Assembly (NCBI GenBank): GCA_016342385.1
Contig: JAEINM010000002.1
Coordinates: 1 to 37,075, forward strand
DNA length: 37,075 nt
Source of the DNA: Spirochaetaceae bacterium
GTDB taxonomy: Bacteria > Spirochaetota > Spirochaetia > DSM-2461
Direction: 5' to 3'
Part shown: positions 3,683 through 19,175 of the stretch, piece after piece
Layout: every line of letters begins with the position of its first letter
Numbering within the stretch: the stretch's first letter is position 1
The notes under the pieces: model-generated
The model's input: the letters and a program-made list of their open reading frames with translations, nothing else
Told to the model about the DNA's origin: nothing
The model's database searches: none
Position numbers and translations under genes: made by a program

Positions 3683-4465
3683 GTGAATAAAATCTTAATC
3701 TGTTGTATTGGATGCCTAATACTCGTCTTTGTTTTCAGTTGTGATACTTCTCTATCGGATGGCACAGATATACTGAGTTTTACCATTACCGGGATTGTGG
3801 GAAAGGCGGAAATAGATCCCATTAACAAGACAATTGACTTTCGTATACGGCCGATTAACCTTGTTGGTCTAAATCCTGTTATTACTGTAACAGAAGGAGC
3901 CATTTTTACTCTTGAGGGAGATCTTGTCGATGGTAAAGCAGTAGATTTAATAGTTACTGCAGAGAATGGGAAAGAAGCAAAATGGAGTATTACAGCAAAT
4001 ATGAATCGTGGCATCTACTATGAAATAGATGGTATACCCCACTCATTTTCTTATGGTTTTACCGATAATACCAACATAATAACAGCTGAAGAATGGGGAA
4101 ATGGTGAGCCTTGTATAACTTCAGACTTACGTATTTTTGCAGCTACCCATATATTCCATAAAAATTTAGTTTCCTATAATCCCGATGAATTTGTCATAAT
4201 CACCTTAAGCTCATTTAGCGCTGGAAATTATGATGAGAGCGACGTCGGTTTTTTATATTCCTTTGATGAAGACCAGAATAATTCTGCTGATTCGGGAATC
4301 ATAACAGTATCAATGAGTCTTGTTCTAGAAAATGAAAGCACTTTAGGTGATGATCTCTATGGAAGTTTTAATCTAATCGGAGAAGATCCTTTCCTTACTG
4401 TACCTATTCCTATAAATGTCACAAATGGTTATTTTAAAGTGCTTTCTATAGTTCATGCATTTTAA
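3683..4465 (+). CDS. Hypothetical lipoprotein
   Basis: Not recognised as any named family. The GTG at 3683 is preferred because GGGAG lies five bases upstream (3673-3677). An ATG at 3668 is in frame but has no ribosome-binding site. The product starts VNKILICCIGCLILVFVFSC, a lipoprotein signal with acceptor Cys in VFSC. The next ~75 residues (FTITGIVGKAEIDPINKTI, then FTLEGDLVDGKAVDLIVTA and GKEAKWSI) follow the pattern of small Ig-like/DUF5018-type domains found in secreted lipoproteins. The rest has acidic stretches and no known motif. It is transcribed divergently from the efflux pair across about 270 bases and points toward the ppdK terminator. It is probably exposed at the cell surface or in the periplasm. 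Function unknown. Confidence 0.72.
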   Translation: MNKILICCIGCLILVFVFSCDTSLSDGTDILSFTITGIVGKAEIDPINKTIDFRIRPINLVGLNPVITVTEGAIFTLEGDLVDGKAVDLIVTAENGKEAKWSITANMNRGIYYEIDGIPHSFSYGFTDNTNIITAEEWGNGEPCITSDLRIFAATHIFHKNLVSYNPDEFVIITLSSFSAGNYDESDVGFLYSFDEDQNNSADSGIITVSMSLVLENESTLGDDLYGSFNLIGEDPFLTVPIPINVTNGYFKVLSIVHAF

Positions 4466-8566: not shown

Positions 8567-9238
8567 TCAAAAATCCCCAACTTCCAATTCTTCACTTGTT
8601 TTAATGCGTCCGCAGCATTGACTAAAGAGTATACCGCTGCCGCAAAGACATAAATCATTCATAGATAATTGATGTCCCGAATGAAAATCCGTATAAATGA
8701 CTTCATTATCTTTTTCTAAATAGGATATATCTGCAACGGGAAAGATAATGTTCTGATTGCGGAAAAATTTCAGTTTTCTATCAACAGACATATGGTCAAA
8801 AATACCAGATTGCAGCAGATTCACCCAGTGTTGAGAGATAATATCCTTGATGACATCTTTTTCTACTTCAGAACAAAAGCGGCTTACCTTTTTCATTTTA
8901 ATATATTTCTCTAACTGAATACTCATAAATGCCGCTTTATCATCTTCAATGTTAAATGTATGGACCGGTTGACCATATTTATTGGAGTGTCTTTGGATCA
9001 TTTCTGTCGAATGTCCGTTGTCTTTTAATTCTCTTGCAATATGCCAACAACGAAAAGCGGAGTCAGAACGTCCTAACTTTTTTAATGTCACACCGAGATA
9101 AAAAAGTGATTTTTCCAATCCGGATTTAGAAGACACAGGACATTGTGTAACAGCTGATTCAAAACATTTTAAAGCTTCCTTCAGATTCCGATCCGATAGA
9201 TAATTTTTCCCTTTTTTAAATTCTTTTTTCCAGTACAT
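8567..9238 (-). CDS. TPR-repeat protein with C-terminal SEC-C-type zinc motif
   Basis: Role not known. The first ~70 residues form TPR-like helices (NLKEALKCFESAVTQCP, then KSLFYLGVTLKKLGRSDSAF). A middle helical region of ~100 residues is not recognised. Near the end CLCGSGILFSQCCG matches the SEC-C signature (C-x-C-x-S-G ... C-C), a short zinc-binding module best known from the SecA C-terminus and from proteins thought to bind ribosomes or nascent chains. The gene is cytoplasmic by sequence, has no signal peptide, and lies upstream of the sigma-factor gene on the same strand. A weak GGAG lies about 13 bases before the start. A role in protein quality control or in tethering to the ribosome is inference only. 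Confidence 0.8.
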   Translation of the reverse strand: MYWKKEFKKGKNYLSDRNLKEALKCFESAVTQCPVSSKSGLEKSLFYLGVTLKKLGRSDSAFRCWHIARELKDNGHSTEMIQRHSNKYGQPVHTFNIEDDKAAFMSIQLEKYIKMKKVSRFCSEVEKDVIKDIISQHWVNLLQSGIFDHMSVDRKLKFFRNQNIIFPVADISYLEKDNEVIYTDFHSGHQLSMNDLCLCGSGILFSQCCGRIKTSEELEVGDF

Positions 9239-9698: not shown

Positions 9699-10109
9699 TT
9701 ACAGAAACCCGCCTTTTATCAGATCTCCCAGCATATGAACCACAGATCCTGTCTGTTCTGTCTTTTCTGAAAGCTTTCCCCCTGAATATCTGAAATAGAG
9801 AAGCAGCCCTTTTCCATTGGGAGATATAATCATATGATGTATCTCCAAATGAGGATACAGTTCAGCCAGTGAACAGATCTCAGATTCTGGGGAAAACCCT
9901 TCAGTTAAAAACAAATACACAAGGGAATGATCGTCCTTTTTTTTCCAACTGGCATCCGCTGCTGCAAAATCTAAGTTTTTATCCATTTGGGACAAATGGA
10001 AAACAGATCTAAGACTTTTTATCTGTTTTCTGAACTTTTCAGATTTTTTATCATCGGAAAATCCCTTTATTTCTATTTGATTAACAACAGTTCCTTCCAA
10101 GTAGATCAT
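9699..10109 (-). CDS. Hypothetical 136-residue protein, coupled to the DHOD-like gene
   Basis: Not recognised. The product is soluble, with no signal peptide or membrane helix. Visible features are a charged N-terminal half (DDKKSEKFRKQIKSLRS), a likely alpha/beta core (HSLVYLFLTEGF, LEIHHMIISPNGKGLLLYFRY) and a short helical tail. The ATG overlaps the stop of the dihydroorotate dehydrogenase-like gene by four bases (ATGA), so translation is probably coupled and the two products likely act together. It is the last gene before the bidirectional terminator. Confidence 0.75.
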   Translation of the reverse strand: MIYLEGTVVNQIEIKGFSDDKKSEKFRKQIKSLRSVFHLSQMDKNLDFAAADASWKKKDDHSLVYLFLTEGFSPESEICSLAELYPHLEIHHMIISPNGKGLLLYFRYSGGKLSEKTEQTGSVVHMLGDLIKGGFL

Positions 10110-11092
10110 CCTTCATCGCGGATTGATTTCAGATATTGAAGTCTTTCATAGAATTCTTCTTTTACATCGGTATTGGATTCCATAGAGCCCTGAAAATCGG
10201 ATATAGCATCATATCCTTTGCTCTCCATCCATTTCTCTATACTAGTGAGCATTTCACTGATATAAGATAATCCCTTTTTATAGAGAACTGAACACAACTG
10301 AACTGTATTGGCACCGGCCATAAGTATTTTTACGGCTTCTTCCCAGTTGTGAATACCAGTTGTTGCTGATATTTCACAGTCTTCAAGTTGTGACGCTATA
10401 ATTGCTGTCCATCTCAATAAAGGGGGGAATTCTGCTTCTGTAGAATATCTTGAACCGGTTTTCATCTGCATTGTATCGATATCAATATCAGGATTGTAAA
10501 ATCTGTTAAACATTACGATACTATCAGCACCGGCATTGTGTAATCTGTAAACCATATTCGGAATGGATGTGAAATTTTGTCCGATTTTCACAGAAATAGG
10601 AATTTTTATCTTACCTTTAATCTGTTTAAATATGGCGACATATTTATCTTCAAGAATATCGGGATCTTCCCGATAGTTGTGAGCCATCAGCCCTATATTG
10701 AGTTCCAATGCATCAGCACCCATTTTTTCGACTGTTTCAGCATAATCTGTCCACCATTCTGTGGAGTAACAGTTTAATGAAGCTATTACAGGTATGGACA
10801 ATTCTTTTTTTGCCTTTTTTATTAATGCGAAGTTTTTATCTGCACTGTACAACATACCTGTTTCCTGAAGGTATGCATAAGCTTCAGGGTGGAGCATATC
10901 ATCAAAATTCTGCCCCATTTTTTTTACTTCCGATGTCATATCCTCTTCAAAAAGAGATTTTAATACTACAGCTGAAGCACCGGCTTTTTCCGCTTTTTTC
11001 AGGCTTTCAATTGTCGATGTTAATCCGGAACTGGATAATATAAGAGGATTTTTTAATTTCAATCCTAAATAGCTGGTAGATAGATCGGCCAT
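10106..11092 (-). CDS. Dihydroorotate dehydrogenase-like FMN protein
   Basis: A 328-residue TIM-barrel flavoprotein of the PyrD/dihydropyrimidine dehydrogenase superfamily. The opening LGLKLKNPLILSSSGLT and the later GADALELNIG, IPISVKIGQNF, GADSIVMFNRF and LMAGANTVQLCSVLYKKG match the beta strands and phosphate-binding end of this fold. The class 1 dihydroorotate dehydrogenase loop N-x-S-C-P-N, which carries the catalytic Cys, is here ELNIGLMAHNYR with no Cys. It may therefore not oxidise dihydroorotate, and pyrD is not assigned. Similar proteins are often annotated only as DHOD-like. AGGAG lies upstream of the ATG. It follows the helicase gene by 57 bases and overlaps the 136-residue gene. 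Confidence 0.88.
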   Translation of the reverse strand: MADLSTSYLGLKLKNPLILSSSGLTSTIESLKKAEKAGASAVVLKSLFEEDMTSEVKKMGQNFDDMLHPEAYAYLQETGMLYSADKNFALIKKAKKELSIPVIASLNCYSTEWWTDYAETVEKMGADALELNIGLMAHNYREDPDILEDKYVAIFKQIKGKIKIPISVKIGQNFTSIPNMVYRLHNAGADSIVMFNRFYNPDIDIDTMQMKTGSRYSTEAEFPPLLRWTAIIASQLEDCEISATTGIHNWEEAVKILMAGANTVQLCSVLYKKGLSYISEMLTSIEKWMESKGYDAISDFQGSMESNTDVKEEFYERLQYLKSIRDEG

Positions 11093-11149: not shown

Positions 11150-13591
11150 TTAGTTTCCACAAAGAAAATCTTCTATTTCCAATAAAATTGCTTCACTGTT
11201 TTTAATAGACCGGGAAGCCGGCGGCAGAGAATTAATAAAAATGGAGCCATATCTTTTTTTGACAACTCTCGAATCGAGGATCAACACTATACCCTTATCG
11301 CTCTGACGTCTCATCAGTCTGCCGAAACCCTGCTTGAATTTCATCACAGCTTCCGGCAGAGACAATTCCATAAAGGGATTTCCTCCCCTATTCTTTATGG
11401 CTTCCATCCTCGCCATAACAACGGGATCCGAAGGAACTCTAAAAGGAAGACGACAGATAATGACGAGTTTAAGTGATTCTCCGGGAGTATCAACTCCTTC
11501 CCAGAATGAATCTGTAGCGAACAAGACACTGGATACATTCTTTCTAAAATTATTGAGCAATCTCGTTCTATCATCATCACCTTGACGGTAAGCTGTTATG
11601 CCGAATTTCTGTAAGAGTGGCTGTAGATTGTTGTAAACTTTTTTCAGCATTTCATATGATGTGAATAAGAGTAATGCCCCTCCCTCTGAGAGCTCCAGTG
11701 CTTTTCCTGATATATCACATATAAACTGCACATAGAGTTCACTTTCTTCAGGCAGGGGGGCATCTGAAGGGACTGCCAGGAGGACACGATTTTCATAATC
11801 AAATGGCGAGGAAAACATCCTGTTCAACAGTCTGTCAGGATCGGTGAAATTCAGGCCGACTCTCGACTGCCAGAAATGAAAACTATTTTTTACTGTCAAA
11901 GTCGCTGAAGTACATATGACAGTTTTAAACTGCTCAAAAACGGTTTCATTCATCATGGAGGCAATATCCAAAGGTGTAATGACAAAGCGCTCAAAAAAAT
12001 CGCCGCTGCTGGTCCGCTTTTTCTCTATCCAGAATACAGATTCACCATATTCACTATAATTCCTGAATTTTTCACAGAATGAAGCCGATTCCTGCATTCT
12101 TCTTATAATAGCCTTGAATTCATAGACAAGAGAGTTTTCTTCATCATCGGGAGAAATCATTTTTAAGACATCTGTACATAATTCTGTCAGGAGCAGGAGA
12201 TTGTTCTGTAATTCCCCTATGGGTGCCAATACTCCGGACTGCAGATTCTCTCCCATATCTTCTGTAATTCTCCGATTGTAACTCTCTCCTGTAAAATCTC
12301 TTGATATACTGTCCAGAAGTTCTGCTTTCACACGGACATTGTTGATCTGCTGGGGAATATCCACAAGTGTTGAAGCGGGACCTGTTAAGGCTTCCATTCG
12401 TACAATAATTCCCAGAGCTTTGCCTCTTTTTTGTCTATAGAGGCGATTGAGTAGCTGAAAAATAGAATATTTACTTAATGATTCAGAGAAAAAGGATGTG
12501 GCGCTAGTTTCTATATTATGCGCCTCGTCAAAAATAATACGGTCATAAACGGGCAATACAGCGCCACTTTCATATCCCATTCCTGCCATTCTGAGACCCA
12601 GGTCGGCAAAAAGGAGATGGTGATTGACAACGAGTATTCCCGCAGAAGAGGCTTCTCTTCTGGCCCTCATAACAAAACAGCTTTCGAAGTGTGAACAACG
12701 CATACCGCTACATGTATCAGATTCACTGCAGACCTTTGACCAGAGAGATTCATCGGGATGGAAATTTAATTCTGTTCTACTTCCTGTTGCTGAGATTTGA
12801 GACCAGTGGTAAATAATTTTTAAGGGATCATCATCATCGAGAAACAGGCTGTTCTCATCGAGCTGCTCTTTCAACCTACTGTGACAGATATAATTCCTTC
12901 GCCCTTTGACCAGTACAGCTTTAATTTTTGAACCTGTCATTTTCTTAACCAGAGGAATATCTTTTTCGATAATCTGCTGCTGCAGATTGATTGTAGCAGT
13001 GGAGATGACTACCCTTTCCTCATTTTCATCGGCCCAAGTTAAGGCGGGGATGAGATAGGCAAAAGATTTTCCAACTCCCGTACCAGCTTCGGCGGCAATA
13101 ATCTTGTCTTCGTTAAACCCTCTGCATATGAGCTGTAGTAAATCCGTTTGAGAAGATCTATATTCATAATTGTCACTTATGGCATCGAGAGCTCCTCCCG
13201 GCATCAGTATAGAACTGAGAGATTCCTCATCAATAGAGATATTTCTTTTTCTTTTTATCGGTTCTGCAACGGCATAAAACCGCTTGAGATCGTTATCGAC
13301 AATAAAAAAACCGATTCCCTGATTTCCCAGGGAAGAGGCAACGGATAAATCAGCCTGACTCGGCTGGAGAACACCTGATGGGTGATTGTGAATTATGACA
13401 TCCCCTTTTTCCATATGGGGGAAAAGGGCCGGAACTTCCTGGTCAGTTCCCCTTGCCGCTACGGAAATGTGAGAAATCAAACCCTCTTCATCGAGTTGTC
13501 CCCACCATAAAACCTCATTAAACTCTGCTTCCTGTACATCGTTTATCATAAGAGAAAGAGCTTGCTGAGTAAATCTACCGGAAATTTCCAC
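11150..13591 (-). CDS. DinG/XPD-family Fe-S helicase with N-terminal RadC-like JAMM domain
   Basis: ATP-dependent DNA helicase of superfamily 2, 813 residues. Residues ~1-110 form a JAB/MPN domain: Glu26 and the JAMM motif H68-N-H70-P-S-G ... S78-x-x-D81 followed by GIGFFIVDN, closest in look to RadC. The helicase follows with Walker A AEAGTGVGKS (167-176), an iron-sulphur domain with Cys236, Cys294, Cys299 and Cys305 (spacing x4 and x5, as in E. coli DinG), DEAH at 355-358, and motif VI QGFGRLMRR near the end. The start is GTG with no clear ribosome-binding site, six bases after the punA stop, so it is probably coupled. DinG family members unwind R-loops and forked DNA. The JAMM domain could act as a peptidase or only as a binding module. 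I do not assign dinG because of the fusion. Confidence 0.92.
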   Translation of the reverse strand: MEISGRFTQQALSLMINDVQEAEFNEVLWWGQLDEEGLISHISVAARGTDQEVPALFPHMEKGDVIIHNHPSGVLQPSQADLSVASSLGNQGIGFFIVDNDLKRFYAVAEPIKRKRNISIDEESLSSILMPGGALDAISDNYEYRSSQTDLLQLICRGFNEDKIIAAEAGTGVGKSFAYLIPALTWADENEERVVISTATINLQQQIIEKDIPLVKKMTGSKIKAVLVKGRRNYICHSRLKEQLDENSLFLDDDDPLKIIYHWSQISATGSRTELNFHPDESLWSKVCSESDTCSGMRCSHFESCFVMRARREASSAGILVVNHHLLFADLGLRMAGMGYESGAVLPVYDRIIFDEAHNIETSATSFFSESLSKYSIFQLLNRLYRQKRGKALGIIVRMEALTGPASTLVDIPQQINNVRVKAELLDSISRDFTGESYNRRITEDMGENLQSGVLAPIGELQNNLLLLTELCTDVLKMISPDDEENSLVYEFKAIIRRMQESASFCEKFRNYSEYGESVFWIEKKRTSSGDFFERFVITPLDIASMMNETVFEQFKTVICTSATLTVKNSFHFWQSRVGLNFTDPDRLLNRMFSSPFDYENRVLLAVPSDAPLPEESELYVQFICDISGKALELSEGGALLLFTSYEMLKKVYNNLQPLLQKFGITAYRQGDDDRTRLLNNFRKNVSSVLFATDSFWEGVDTPGESLKLVIICRLPFRVPSDPVVMARMEAIKNRGGNPFMELSLPEAVMKFKQGFGRLMRRQSDKGIVLILDSRVVKKRYGSIFINSLPPASRSIKNSEAILLEIEDFLCGN

Positions 13592-13597
13592 TATATA

Positions 13598-14425
13598 TTA
13601 TTTACTGTTCAATTCCTGAACTATTCCCATAATTAATTCGACCATGTCATTCTGGACTTTTTTTCCTGTTTCAACAACCTCTTCGTGATTTAAAGGTTGA
13701 TCCAGTATGCCCGCCGCCATGTTTGTGGCACAGGAAAGGCCTATAACTTTCATCCCCAGCCAGTTGGCAACGATAACTTCCGGAACAGTTGACATACCCG
13801 CCAGATCGGCTCCGATGATTCGTGCCATTTTAATCTCTGCGGGAGATTCGTAGGAAGGACCTGTGAAGGCAGCATATACACCCTCTTTGAAGTCAGAGGG
13901 ATTAGAGAGAGTTTTTGCTGCAATCTTTTTGACAATAGTTCTCAATTCGGGAGTATAGGGATTACTCATATCGGGGAATCTGGCGCCCATCTTATCATTG
14001 TTGGGACCAATGAGGGGATTAGTTCCCATTAAGTTGATATGATCGTTCAGAAGAACAATATTGCCCGGAGAAAATGATTTATTCACTGCACCGGCAGCAT
14101 TGGTCACTATGAGGATTTCAACGCCTAAACCATGGAGCAGAGCTGTGGGAAGAACAACTTCATCCATAGTCCATCCTTCATAAAAATGGAAACGGCCGGC
14201 AAGTGTCACTGTATTTTCACCTATTTTCAGAAGACCTTTATGGCCAGCTACAGAAGGCTCCGGAAATCCTTCAATCTGACTGTATGGGATTTCAATACCA
14301 TCCAGTTTTTCAGAAATTTCCGCAAGACCGGAACCGAGAATCAATCCGATTTTAGGTTTTGCATCTGTTACTTTTCTTATGGATTTGACAGCTTTTTCCA
14401 CTCTGTCAGAAAAATCATTTCTCAT
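13598..14425 (-). CDS. punA: Purine-nucleoside phosphorylase (trimeric type)
   Basis: Cytosolic salvage enzyme splitting inosine, guanosine and deoxy forms with phosphate into base and (deoxy)ribose 1-phosphate. It is 275 residues, standard for the trimeric PNP class. Motifs in order: IGLILGSGLAEISEKL (phosphate loop), EGFPEPSVAGHKG, GRFHFYEGW, LIVTNAAGAVN, the FTGPSYESPAEIKM segment, GADLAGMSTVPEVIVAN, and CATNMAAGI with the base-contacting Asn. AGAGGTG lies eight bases before the ATG. It sits between sbcC (81 bases upstream) and the helicase gene (6 bases downstream), so it is likely in the same operon. That may let the cell recycle purine nucleosides released during DNA degradation, which is inference. 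Confidence 0.96.
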   Translation of the reverse strand: MRNDFSDRVEKAVKSIRKVTDAKPKIGLILGSGLAEISEKLDGIEIPYSQIEGFPEPSVAGHKGLLKIGENTVTLAGRFHFYEGWTMDEVVLPTALLHGLGVEILIVTNAAGAVNKSFSPGNIVLLNDHINLMGTNPLIGPNNDKMGARFPDMSNPYTPELRTIVKKIAAKTLSNPSDFKEGVYAAFTGPSYESPAEIKMARIIGADLAGMSTVPEVIVANWLGMKVIGLSCATNMAAGILDQPLNHEEVVETGKKVQNDMVELIMGIVQELNSK

Positions 14426-14506: not shown

Positions 14507-17500
14507 TCAGACAATTTCGAGAATACTGCGTCCACCGGCCAGTTTTTTAACTTTTATCTGTACTGAAATACGTTCTCTTATGGCTTCGATATGAGAAATT
14601 ATTCCAATTAATTTACCGCTGGATTGGAATGTTTCCAGAGCCGACAAGACGATTTCCAATGTATCGGGATCAAGGGTTCCAAATCCTTCATCGAGAAAGA
14701 GGGAATCAATTGTTACTTTATTCCCTACCAGTTCAGACAAACCCAATGACAGCGAGAGGCTGACGAGAAAACTCTCTCCTCCTGATAATGTGGTGGAAGG
14801 CCTGACAGTATCCGCCTGCCAGCAGTCAACAATTTCAATCTCAAGTTCTTTCTGGGAAGATCTTTCGATTCTGTATCTGTTGTTCAACTTTAGCAAGTGA
14901 TTATTCGCAAGATAGACCAGTTTTTCCAGAGTCAGACCCTGTACAAATCTTCGATATATTTTCCCATCGGCACTGCCGATAAGATTTTTTATTTTTGACC
15001 ACTTGAGGCAGTCTTTCTCCTGATTTTCAATCTGTAGGGATAAACCTTTGAGCTTTTCTCTTTTGTTGTTATCGCTCATGAGTTTTTCATCGAGTATTCC
15101 AATACCCCTTGAAGTTTCTTCTATCTCTTCTTTTAGCAATTTAAGATTACCTGATACATTCTCTAAGAATTGAATAGGGGGTTCTGATTTTTTATGCCCT
15201 TCTTCTACAGTCCTGGCATTGTGATATGCTTCCTCAGCACGTATTCTCTTTTCCTTAACACTTTCCAGTTGATCTCTTACCCTTATCATATCCTCTTCAA
15301 TGTCTTCTTTTTCAAAGTCTGACAGGTCAAGTTTTTCTCTTGACAGTATTGTTTTTAACTGAGAATCCAGGTCTGTTAACTGGTTAGTCATCTCGGGCAG
15401 TTCTTTGAGGTAATTTTCACAATTTCCCTTAATCAGAGATAGTTTTTCTCTCGTTTCCCCTATTTCTATCTTGGTATTTTCCAGCTCTTTTTCGCTACCC
15501 TCTTTAAGATTTCTGATTTTTTTTCTGATGGATTCAAGTGATTCCGTTCCGGATATTGTCTCTATTTCTGATTTTAGTCTGAGAATTTTAGAATTCATTA
15601 GTGCATTCTCATCGATTAATTGTTTCTGCTGCCGGGATAATTGGATCGTCTGAGCAGAGAAATTTTTCAAATTATTCTGAGTTTCGGATAAGTGCATCCG
15701 GATCTGAATGAGTTCATCACTTTTTGAGACATAAGCATCGCGGTAACTTTTAAGTAAACCTACCAGATTAGTCGTATCGGCGGTTAATTTAAGAGGTTGT
15801 ACTAGAGGATTGATAGAATCTTTCAGACATATCATTTCATTTTGCAGATCCAAGGTGTGAATACTTTTTTCATATTTTTTGTCTAAATGCTCACATGTCT
15901 CTTTCAGTATGCGCTCTTCATCTAATAAGCTGTTGTATTCATATTCCCAATTATTGTATTGAGCAATTTCACTTTCATTGAAGGAGTATATTTCATTAGC
16001 TGCATCTCGATGGGAAGGATGAAGATCGGGGAAAAAAGGTTTTTTATTTTCCGCCCATTCCTGTTCGAGCATTTCCTGCTTGACAGCTTGTTCCCGGAGG
16101 TCTTTTTCATTTATGCCTAACTGCTCATTGAGAACGTCTTTTCCCGATTCCAGTTTTTGAATTTCATTGCGAATCCTTTCCAGAATAATTTCATAATCTC
16201 TAGTGTCATCGCTTTCTGAAAAGGATGGCAGATCATGAACAGTGGCTCTGCATACTGGGCAAATATCTCCTTCAGAGAGATCTTTTCTAATAATTTGGGC
16301 ATGATTTACCATAGATTGTATCTTCTGTTCATCTTTGGCTAGGGAAAGTTCGTTTTTCTTTTTGTCCAGCTGAACAAGAGTTTTATTGAGAGCTGCTTCG
16401 CATTTCTTTTTGTTTTCCAGTAGATTTTTTTTATTTTCTATTCCTTTATTGTAACTTTTTCCAATGGGGCTTAATTTGAGTAGTATTTCTTTCTTTTTGT
16501 CTAATTCTTCTCTATTGGACGGTTTTTCATCTTTTACTTTTCTAATTTTAAAGGACAGAGATTTTAAAGCCTGTTTTTCCTTATCCAGACGAATCTTTAA
16601 CCGCTCTATATTCTGGATTGTCCCTTTTTTGAAAGAAGAAAGCTCACTCAAAAGTGACAGATAACGCGGTATCTTTTCTTTTACAAGAGGAAGGAAATCC
16701 ATTATTTCACCATATCCGGGATGAGATTCCAAATATTCCCTAAGAGCCATCTCTTTTTTGTTCAGAGTGGTTAGAAGCACTTCACAACTGTGAATGTTTT
16801 CCTCATTTTCCCGCATCTGATTTTTCAGATCTGCCATTCTTTCATTACTTTTTGAAAGAGTTTCTCTTTCAGATTCAGATCTCTGCTGAAGAATCTGGAT
16901 TTGTTCGATATTGTTCTGCAGTTCTATTATTGTTCTGCTGTTCTCAGATAGTGATTCTTTTTTATTTTCCAGGTCAACATATAGTTTCTCCAGTGTAATA
17001 TTGAGAGAGTTCTCCTGATTCTCAGAATCAATAAGTTCATTCTTTTTTCTGGATATTTCTTTACGGAGAGAAATATAGGATTTATATACAGGAAGATTAT
17101 TCACTATTCGTAATTTTTTTTCATATTCAGCTTTTAAGGGTTCCACTTCATTTTCAATTTTCTGAACCCTTTCCAGTTCATACTTTGCTCCGTCAACCCT
17201 ATTTTTTAATATGACATCCTGTTCCAGCCATTTCTGACTTTCCGAATAGGTAGTTATTTTATTTCTGATCTCTTCTCTTTTGTTATGAAGCGTATCCAGC
17301 GCGACAGTATACTCATTGCGCAGAGATACGTTTAGAATTTCCGTATCTCCCAGTTTTTCTTTTAATCTATCCAGTTTTTCATCTTCAATTTTAGAACGGT
17401 TAAAGGCTTCGATACTAATTCTTGTATAAATTTCACTACCGGTCATTTTTTCAAGAAGATCGGCTCTTTCGTTAACGCCAGCAATTAAGAAAGAAGCGAA

Positions 17501-17965
17501 ATTTCCCTGAGCCAGTAAAATTGACCGGGTGAACTGTTCATAATCCAGTCCGGCAATCTCCGTTACAATAAGAGGCACATTACTTTTTTTCTCTTCAATT
17601 ATTTCTTCTTTGTCACCATTTATCCGTGTTATGAACATCTTGGAATTCTGCAGTTTTCCGTCGGATTTGCCTCTGGATCTCCTTTGTTCCCATCGACTTC
17701 TATAGGTATTTCCGTCAATGGAAAAAGTCAGTTCGGAAAAACATTCACCACAGTGGCGGCTCATTATTTCATCGGGGTTTTTCAGCCGTGGTGTTCTGCC
17801 GTATAAAGCCAGGCATATGGCATCAAATATGGTTGATTTTCCGGCTCCGGTGGGACCCGTAATAGCAAAGAGTCCCGACCCGTTAAAGGGTTTTTTATTA
17901 AAGTGAATATCTGATCTTCCCTGAAGAGAATTCAGGTTTAAAATTGAAAGAGTTTCAATTTTCAT
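14507..17965 (-). CDS. sbcC: Exonuclease subunit SbcC (Rad50-like ATPase)
   Basis: Large SMC-like ATPase that partners SbcD to cut hairpins and process blocked double-strand ends. I choose ATG 17965 because GGGG lies nine bases upstream and it begins MKIETLSILNLNSLQG, the family N-terminus. An ATG at 17986 is in frame but less likely. Domains: Walker A GPTGAGKS (37-44), Q-loop around SILLAQGNFASFL, about 800 residues of coiled coil with the zinc hook CPVC near residues 569-572, ABC signature LSGGESFLVSLS, Walker B DSLFLDEGFGTLD, and the H-loop IISH. About 1,150 residues, normal for the family. It overlaps the sbcD 3' end by 11 bases, as is usual for this pair. Confidence 0.97.
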   Translation of the reverse strand: MKIETLSILNLNSLQGRSDIHFNKKPFNGSGLFAITGPTGAGKSTIFDAICLALYGRTPRLKNPDEIMSRHCGECFSELTFSIDGNTYRSRWEQRRSRGKSDGKLQNSKMFITRINGDKEEIIEEKKSNVPLIVTEIAGLDYEQFTRSILLAQGNFASFLIAGVNERADLLEKMTGSEIYTRISIEAFNRSKIEDEKLDRLKEKLGDTEILNVSLRNEYTVALDTLHNKREEIRNKITTYSESQKWLEQDVILKNRVDGAKYELERVQKIENEVEPLKAEYEKKLRIVNNLPVYKSYISLRKEISRKKNELIDSENQENSLNITLEKLYVDLENKKESLSENSRTIIELQNNIEQIQILQQRSESERETLSKSNERMADLKNQMRENEENIHSCEVLLTTLNKKEMALREYLESHPGYGEIMDFLPLVKEKIPRYLSLLSELSSFKKGTIQNIERLKIRLDKEKQALKSLSFKIRKVKDEKPSNREELDKKKEILLKLSPIGKSYNKGIENKKNLLENKKKCEAALNKTLVQLDKKKNELSLAKDEQKIQSMVNHAQIIRKDLSEGDICPVCRATVHDLPSFSESDDTRDYEIILERIRNEIQKLESGKDVLNEQLGINEKDLREQAVKQEMLEQEWAENKKPFFPDLHPSHRDAANEIYSFNESEIAQYNNWEYEYNSLLDEERILKETCEHLDKKYEKSIHTLDLQNEMICLKDSINPLVQPLKLTADTTNLVGLLKSYRDAYVSKSDELIQIRMHLSETQNNLKNFSAQTIQLSRQQKQLIDENALMNSKILRLKSEIETISGTESLESIRKKIRNLKEGSEKELENTKIEIGETREKLSLIKGNCENYLKELPEMTNQLTDLDSQLKTILSREKLDLSDFEKEDIEEDMIRVRDQLESVKEKRIRAEEAYHNARTVEEGHKKSEPPIQFLENVSGNLKLLKEEIEETSRGIGILDEKLMSDNNKREKLKGLSLQIENQEKDCLKWSKIKNLIGSADGKIYRRFVQGLTLEKLVYLANNHLLKLNNRYRIERSSQKELEIEIVDCWQADTVRPSTTLSGGESFLVSLSLSLGLSELVGNKVTIDSLFLDEGFGTLDPDTLEIVLSALETFQSSGKLIGIISHIEAIRERISVQIKVKKLAGGRSILEIV

Positions 17966-19175
17966 CGCAATTATCCCCTTCTTCAACCTTTATCATCAGT
18001 TCATTGTACAAAGGAAGGAGATCACTGATATCGTCTTCTGTTAAGCCGGATTTCTCACATCTTTTAATAAACACTTCTTCCACTGTCAGATCTTTGATCT
18101 CAATCGATCTCTCCGGTGATAGAATATTCTCTCCCTCTACTGTTAAAACCTTAATTCTCAGAAACTCAAAACCTTTACCCAAGGCTCTTTCATTCATCAG
18201 TTTATTAATATCTCCAATAGCCTTTCCTCCTGAAATTTCAGCATCTGCCCAGAAAGGTCCATCGGGGGGATCAAATTCGTCCAGTTGATTGATGACTTCC
18301 TCAAAATCCCCTTTAAATCGTATCAACTTTCTAAATTCAGGTACTTGTACAGAAATGACATTCAGTAGTTCAGATCCATTGAATTCTGAAATAAGTACCT
18401 GCTTGTCACCCTTTTCTCCGAAGTCCATATGCAGGGGAGAACCGCAATATCTGAGATCTTGTCTTGAAGCAACTTTTTGAGGCTTGTGAATATGACCCAA
18501 AGCCGTATAATCAAATCCGTCACTAAATATATCAGCGGGAATAGATCCTAGATTTCCAACATAGAGATCTCTCTGACCGGCTCCCGAAAGGCTGCCTGTA
18601 ATGAATAAATGACCCATGGCAAGAATTGGTATATTAGACTGATCTTTTACCTCAAGAGCTCTATGAAGAGTTCTTCTATAGTATGTCATTATACCATCTA
18701 TGACCGCGGTTTCTCTCTCCTGCCAGAATTCTCCGGCTTTTGGTATATGAACATCTCTTTCCCGTAGAAAAGGGACAGCACAGACTATCGCCATTGGCTT
18801 TCCACTAGAATCTCTTATGGTTATAACATCATCTTCGGGAGTATTACCTGTACCTCCATTGACATATACAGAAAGATGTCTGAGTAACTCTTTCGGGGAA
18901 TTGAGTTTCGTAATTGAATCGTGATTTCCCCCGATAATGACAGTGGCATGGCAGCAGCTTTCCCTGATGGAGCAGAGAAAATCATAATAGAGCATTTCGG
19001 CACTGTTCGGAGGATTTGTACTGTCAAAAATATCACCGGAAACCAGCAATATATCAATAGACTCTTTGTCTAAAGTTTCTCTGAGCCACATAAGGAATTC
19101 TTTTTGTTCATCTATTCTCTCTCTGTCGCATAATCGGGCCCCAAGATGCCAGTCAGAAGTATGTAAAATCCGCAT
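17955..19175 (-). CDS. sbcD: Exonuclease subunit SbcD (Mre11-like nuclease)
   Basis: Metal-dependent nuclease subunit of SbcCD. The 406-residue product has the calcineurin-like phosphoesterase motifs in order: SDWHLG (residues 7-12), VSGDIFD, GGNHDS, AMGHLFITG and ALGHIHKPQ, which supply the two-metal site. The C-terminal third is the capping and SbcC-binding region. It is the first gene of the proposed operon sbcD-sbcC-punA-helicase-DHOD-like-orphan, with a plausible promoter just upstream (19209-19236) and an AAGGTGA ribosome site. Confidence 0.97.
   Translation of the reverse strand: MRILHTSDWHLGARLCDRERIDEQKEFLMWLRETLDKESIDILLVSGDIFDSTNPPNSAEMLYYDFLCSIRESCCHATVIIGGNHDSITKLNSPKELLRHLSVYVNGGTGNTPEDDVITIRDSSGKPMAIVCAVPFLRERDVHIPKAGEFWQERETAVIDGIMTYYRRTLHRALEVKDQSNIPILAMGHLFITGSLSGAGQRDLYVGNLGSIPADIFSDGFDYTALGHIHKPQKVASRQDLRYCGSPLHMDFGEKGDKQVLISEFNGSELLNVISVQVPEFRKLIRFKGDFEEVINQLDEFDPPDGPFWADAEISGGKAIGDINKLMNERALGKGFEFLRIKVLTVEGENILSPERSIEIKDLTVEEVFIKRCEKSGLTEDDISDLLPLYNELMIKVEEGDNCDEN

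Follow-up and report, generated by a model that had tools for sequence, protein, structure and literature searches.

A RadC-type JAMM domain fused to a YoaA/DinG-type iron–sulfur helicase in Spirochaetota: a candidate helicase-tethered hydrolase

RadC occurs widely among bacteria, and what it does is disputed. A domain of this type is found within a helicase gene of a Spirochaetaceae bacterium (assembly GCA_016342385.1), in positions 1 to 37,075 of contig JAEINM010000002.1, the whole stretch of DNA analysed here and referred to below as the window; the source assembly is fragmented (557 contigs) and the genome 88% complete. The open reading frame at 11150–13591, on the minus strand, starts with GTG and encodes 813 amino acids; it is real and lies where the first-pass annotation, a model's reading of the letters alone, had placed it. 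Three segments can be distinguished, all on the minus strand: a RadC-type JAMM/JAB domain (residues 1–115; 13247–13591), recognized by Pfam RadC, its conserved active site and the structures matched by its predicted model; a short variable linker (residues 116–126; 13214–13246), the least conserved of the three, with a mean conservation of 0.42 at residues 116–125 versus about 0.61 on either side; and a YoaA/DinG-type Fe–S helicase (residues 127–813; 11150–13213), recognized by NF053712, Helicase_C_2, invariant cysteines and a model match to DinG 6FWR. The identity of the protein as a RadC-like JAMM domain fused to a complete YoaA/DinG-type Fe–S helicase is confirmed, and chance is excluded because all five active-site residues are kept in 57/57 relatives and in 100 of 102 non-identical JAMM domains.

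The JAMM motif had been described beforehand as complete, Glu26 included, and this is borne out: E26, H68, N69, H70, P71, S78 and D81 are all present at those positions, with the JAMM spacing HxH-x7-S-x2-D. The domain search that had been proposed for residues 1–115 gives a Pfam RadC (PF04002) score of 29.6 bits, above the cut-off of 22.1, and the whole protein scores 23.4 bits, the match in this single sequence being short (residues 65–89 only); among the aligned relatives, 30/30 match RadC. The models for the full-length RadC family score far below their cut-offs (NF000642, 26.1 versus 180 bits; TIGR00608, 20.7 versus 133.85), and by these profiles the N-terminal part is a RadC-type domain and not a RadC protein. 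With RadC (UPF0758; PDB 2QLC) it shares HNHPSG, the PS-x2-D motif, a K/R-G motif upstream and the JAMM fold, whereas the N-terminal half of RadC itself is missing from it and a helicase is attached. The separate RadC of the same genome (G000:C47) aligns with it, in a profile comparison, at E26 and at the HNHPSG/PS-x2-D block. Another genome (G182) has eight matches to the JAMM/RadC profile, several of them in open reading frames of 195–279 amino acids, and apparently carries many stand-alone RadC copies.

The profile search and a fold prediction, named in advance as the results that together might overturn the assignment, left it standing. The AlphaFold2 model of residues 1–125 (predicted local distance difference test, pLDDT, of 87.4) adopts the JAMM fold and has RadC 2QLC as its best structure match, followed by Rpn11, AMSH-type JAMM proteases and archaeal JAMM proteins. 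E26 opens the strand at 26–33, H68 and H70 end the strand at 65–70, and D81 is found close to the beginning of the helix at 79–89, so that the predicted placement of the four residues is that expected for a JAMM domain. The domain also shares the glutamate, the H-x-H-x7-S-x2-D motif and the predicted fold with the JAMM/MPN+ (JAB) metalloenzymes.

Ten residues are invariant in the 57 sequences (E26, G48, H68, N69, H70, P71, S78, D81, G92 and G94), and E26, H68, H70, S78 and D81 are all kept in 100/102 non-identical JAMM domains, although their median pairwise identity is 40%, which argues that catalysis is under selection and that the site is not a relic. In all likelihood the domain holds a single zinc ion and acts as a hydrolase. 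No basic residue besides the ligands is fully invariant, R47 being found in 88 of the 102 domains. The domain is acidic in all 102 sequences, with a median net charge of −8 (range −13 to −2), or about −7 per 100 residues versus −1 for the attached helicase. In one relative (L195, G076:C12, about positions 4185–4275), the active-site loop of the JAMM-DinG is lengthened in frame by about 20 residues (DEKSPHPPFERGSQGDLALRA) between HNHPS and SEAD; the DNA of this insert belongs to a short repeat dispersed through that genome, where it has 19 matches, the insert itself counted.

The helicase, which had been read as a complete DinG with four cluster cysteines, proves to be just that: Walker A lies at 170, DEAH at 355 and motif VI (QGFGRLMR) at 754, and the cysteines at 236, 294, 299 and 305 are invariant in 57/57 sequences. 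NF053712 (YoaA) matches at 1e-171, with 572.9 bits, below its equivalog cut-off of 680, and Helicase_C_2 at 1.7e-48. The full-length predicted model (pLDDT 88.5) matches structures of DinG with single-stranded DNA first, 6FWR being the best, and contains a C-terminal helix at 799–811 (the MD2 helix, alpha7 of YoaA). The helicase core, Fe–S cluster cysteines and motor motifs are shared with Escherichia coli YoaA/DinG and Staphylococcus aureus ExoDinG; the former have no N-terminal domain and the latter a DnaQ-type exonuclease, whereas the window protein has the JAMM domain there and gave no exonuclease match in a Pfam search. A search of the window genome with PF04364 did not find HolC, with which YoaA is partnered, an absence that in a genome 88% complete is not proof. 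Among DinG relatives, that of a Gemmatimonadota (L073) carries a DnaQ-type exonuclease at this N-terminal position, and that of a Planctomycetota (L075) is extended at its N-terminus by about 130 residues with no Pfam match. Another helicase of the window genome is Rad3-like and 780 amino acids long (G000:C174; L220:1611-3953), with similar secondary matches in other members of the family.

The architecture itself is already known. The first-pass annotation had held the known fusions of DinG to be with a 3'-5' exonuclease, a statement now out of date, since Aravind's group noted RadC-DinG fusions, DinG was listed in 2017 among the established fusions of RadC (PMC5512222), and RadC-like DinG is a named subgroup in the review by Cheng (2025), where a predicted zinc site and a similarity to JAMM proteases are described and no research is said to have been done on the subgroup (PMC11981726). 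The subgroup, represented there by a Desulfuromonas soudanensis model, shares with the window protein the N-terminal RadC-like domain with its conserved E, H, H and D, the YoaA-like helicase with motor motifs and Fe–S cysteines, the C-terminal helix (here predicted) and the lack of a detected HolC; the features used there for RadC-like DinG are all found in the window protein, which differs in coming from Spirochaetota. What is new here is the phylum-wide spread, the co-inheritance with repeated loss of the JAMM domain, two independent broken JAMM domains and the acidic character; the available part of the review holds no mention of the spread, the loss pattern, the broken versions or the acidity.

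The spread, which had also been suggested for examination, was followed in 296 Spirochaetota genomes, with the fused domain counted at E < 1e-15 and the helicase at E <= 1e-60. The fused JAMM-DinG is found in about 122 of them, in more than 30 family codes (a count from the match list), several of these genomes being assembled in one or two contigs; the helicase is found in 255/296, some of the weaker matches possibly being other DinG types. A second match in one relative (G001; C231, open reading frame of 551 amino acids) is false and belongs to an ABC transporter protein. The scan of viral contigs with the JAMM alignment gave no JAMM-DinG, and viral DinG relatives are without the domain. In the plasmid collection, the records listed include a single match that extends into the JAMM domain, from Fusobacterium vincentii (NZ_CP084075.1, L177), a record labelled as a plasmid that at 2.1 Mb looks like a chromosome.

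In 69 fused proteins, JAMM and helicase identities correlate with r = 0.90, shuffles never exceeding 0.22, which indicates that the two parts are inherited as one unit and fits one ancient fusion followed by vertical inheritance. The helicase occurs without the JAMM domain in small Borrelia-like genomes (family code f20, a putative identification) and in code f9. On the helicase tree, the fused and unfused states require approximately 12 changes, at least 8 of them by well-supported branches; the tree was built by a quick method and includes a few long branches (L194, L197 and L219), and the unfused tip L031, which starts at a contig edge, is not to be counted. This pattern, read from the sequences, is one of repeated loss of the JAMM domain with the helicase kept. 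The helicase of L192 begins with a remnant equivalent to JAMM residues 97–125, with the purine nucleoside phosphorylase gene still upstream, and may be a direct trace of such a loss, or may reflect a frameshift or assembly error in a draft genome. The 54-residue N-terminus of L062 was rejected as a JAMM remnant; it gives no JAMM match and reads like translated tRNA sequence.

The two exceptions among the 102 domains are fused proteins in which the active site is broken and the helicase signatures are intact. In that of Fusobacterium vincentii (L177:7995-10463), a domain of JAMM length is kept, matched by the JAMM profile with 18 bits over 109 positions, with the substitutions E26S, H68R, H70T and D81E; in that of G228 (L178), a genome of the Treponemataceae group, HRSR replaces HNHP and E26 is lost. 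The two proteins occupy separate regions of the helicase tree, which makes them separate events. The pExoDinG group of Cheng's review carries a pseudo-exonuclease (PMC11981726), and a parallel can be drawn between it and these pseudo-JAMM DinGs, the fused domain being degenerate in both.

The reading favoured here, with a probability of roughly 0.4, is that of a helicase-tethered JAMM hydrolase acting on protein rather than DNA. The ATP-driven Fe–S helicase would run along single-stranded DNA and deliver the hydrolase to sites where DNA is damaged or stalled, the motor would pull on a protein bound or crosslinked to the DNA, and the JAMM domain would then cut a peptide or isopeptide bond in that protein; a zinc hydrolase with a conserved site on a single-stranded DNA motor is the firmer part of this mechanism, compared with the choice of substrate. 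A protein substrate is suggested because the nearest folds other than RadC are JAMM proteases, because those JAB domains that have been characterized biochemically act as peptidases on ubiquitin-like proteins (PMC5512222), because the domain is acidic throughout, and because FANCJ, a related Fe–S helicase, is known to unfold a DNA–protein crosslink for the metalloprotease SPRTN (PMC12279946). FANCJ and SPRTN are separate proteins, and the protease fold of SPRTN is unrelated to JAMM, so that they provide only a works-like analogy, a related Fe–S helicase coupled to a metalloprotease on DNA. By that analogy, JAMM-DinG might be the bacterial counterpart, a helicase and protease in one chain that would unfold and cleave proteins covalently attached to DNA, and this would be the first function for a RadC-type JAMM, a more specific proposal that is rather unlikely as it stands. 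Several points weigh against a protein substrate: the literature searched yielded no RadC-type JAMM with proven protease activity; the repeated losses, as read from the tree, indicate that the domain is dispensable in many lineages; and SRAP/YedK adducts as the substrate find no positive co-occurrence, SRAP being present in about 20/122 fused versus 61/174 other genomes. To these are added two that also favour a role on nucleic acids, namely that the JAMM domain occupies the slot of the nuclease in other DinGs, such as the exonuclease of L073, and that Aravind's group has argued for a nucleic-acid role of RadC, both from its fusions, DinG among them, and from a missing groove for a ubiquitin tail in RadC-type domains (PMC5512222). 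A role on nucleic acids is further favoured by the closer resemblance of the domain to RadC than to the JAMM proteases.

On such grounds the domain might instead be a nucleic-acid or nucleotide hydrolase that replaces the DnaQ exonuclease of ExoDinG and trims the strand exposed by the helicase, a possible but doubtful reading, since what is conserved is the set of a mononuclear JAMM site, in which the ligands are joined by no basic residue that is invariant throughout, and RadC nuclease activity was not found in the literature searched. The uniform acidity also counts against an autonomous DNA-gripping nuclease, weakly so because the helicase could supply the grip. A chiefly regulatory or docking role for the helicase, through protein–protein recognition as in MPN-minus domains and with the metal site serving structure or sensing, would suit the broken versions, which must serve a non-catalytic purpose, and the failure to detect HolC, which may call for another recruiter; it is nevertheless improbable as the chief role, because the catalytic glutamate and the serine are kept besides the ligands in 100/102 domains and a purely structural site needs no E26. 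That the N-terminal region is not a true JAMM domain, or that the fusion is an assembly artefact, could be argued from the short Pfam match and the 557 contigs, and is extremely improbable given the recurrence of the fusion in about 122 genomes, several of them in one or two contigs, the high confidence of the predicted fold and the co-inheritance of the two parts. The protein-directed reading, if true, would mean that bacteria possess a helicase-coupled protease for DNA-bound proteins, and a nuclease would mean a protease fold turned to DNA. In either case, a RadC domain tied to a helicase of known behaviour offers a handle on its chemistry, with the DNA partner fixed and with active, lost and broken versions available for comparison.

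In the window, the gene is flanked on the same strand by sbcD (17955–19175; Pfam Metallophos and SbcD_C), sbcC (14507–17986; AAA_23 and SbcC_Walker_B) and a purine nucleoside phosphorylase gene (13598–14425; PNP_UDP_1, 1.1e-48) upstream, and by a dihydroorotate dehydrogenase-like gene (10106–11092; DHO_dh, 1.7e-12) downstream, all co-directional; sbcD and sbcC share 32 bases, after which come gaps of 81, 6 and 57 bases. The first-pass annotation had placed JAMM-dinG in one operon with SbcCD, and the genes are indeed adjacent and co-directional here, whereas in the neighbourhood comparison this adjacency is confined to the window's genus (L033 and L080), so that a functional link to SbcCD from conserved context was rejected beyond the genus. 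The purine nucleoside phosphorylase gene adjoins DinG in many distant Spirochaetota, fused or unfused, the Borrelia-like genomes included; neither it nor SbcCD is specific to the JAMM domain. Several members of the same family likewise have the dihydroorotate dehydrogenase-like gene downstream, and groES downstream of DinG is common among relatives. Near groES in the window lies a gene for a protein with TPR and SEC-C motifs (8567–9238), and many relatives keep this gene, along with groES, downstream of DinG.
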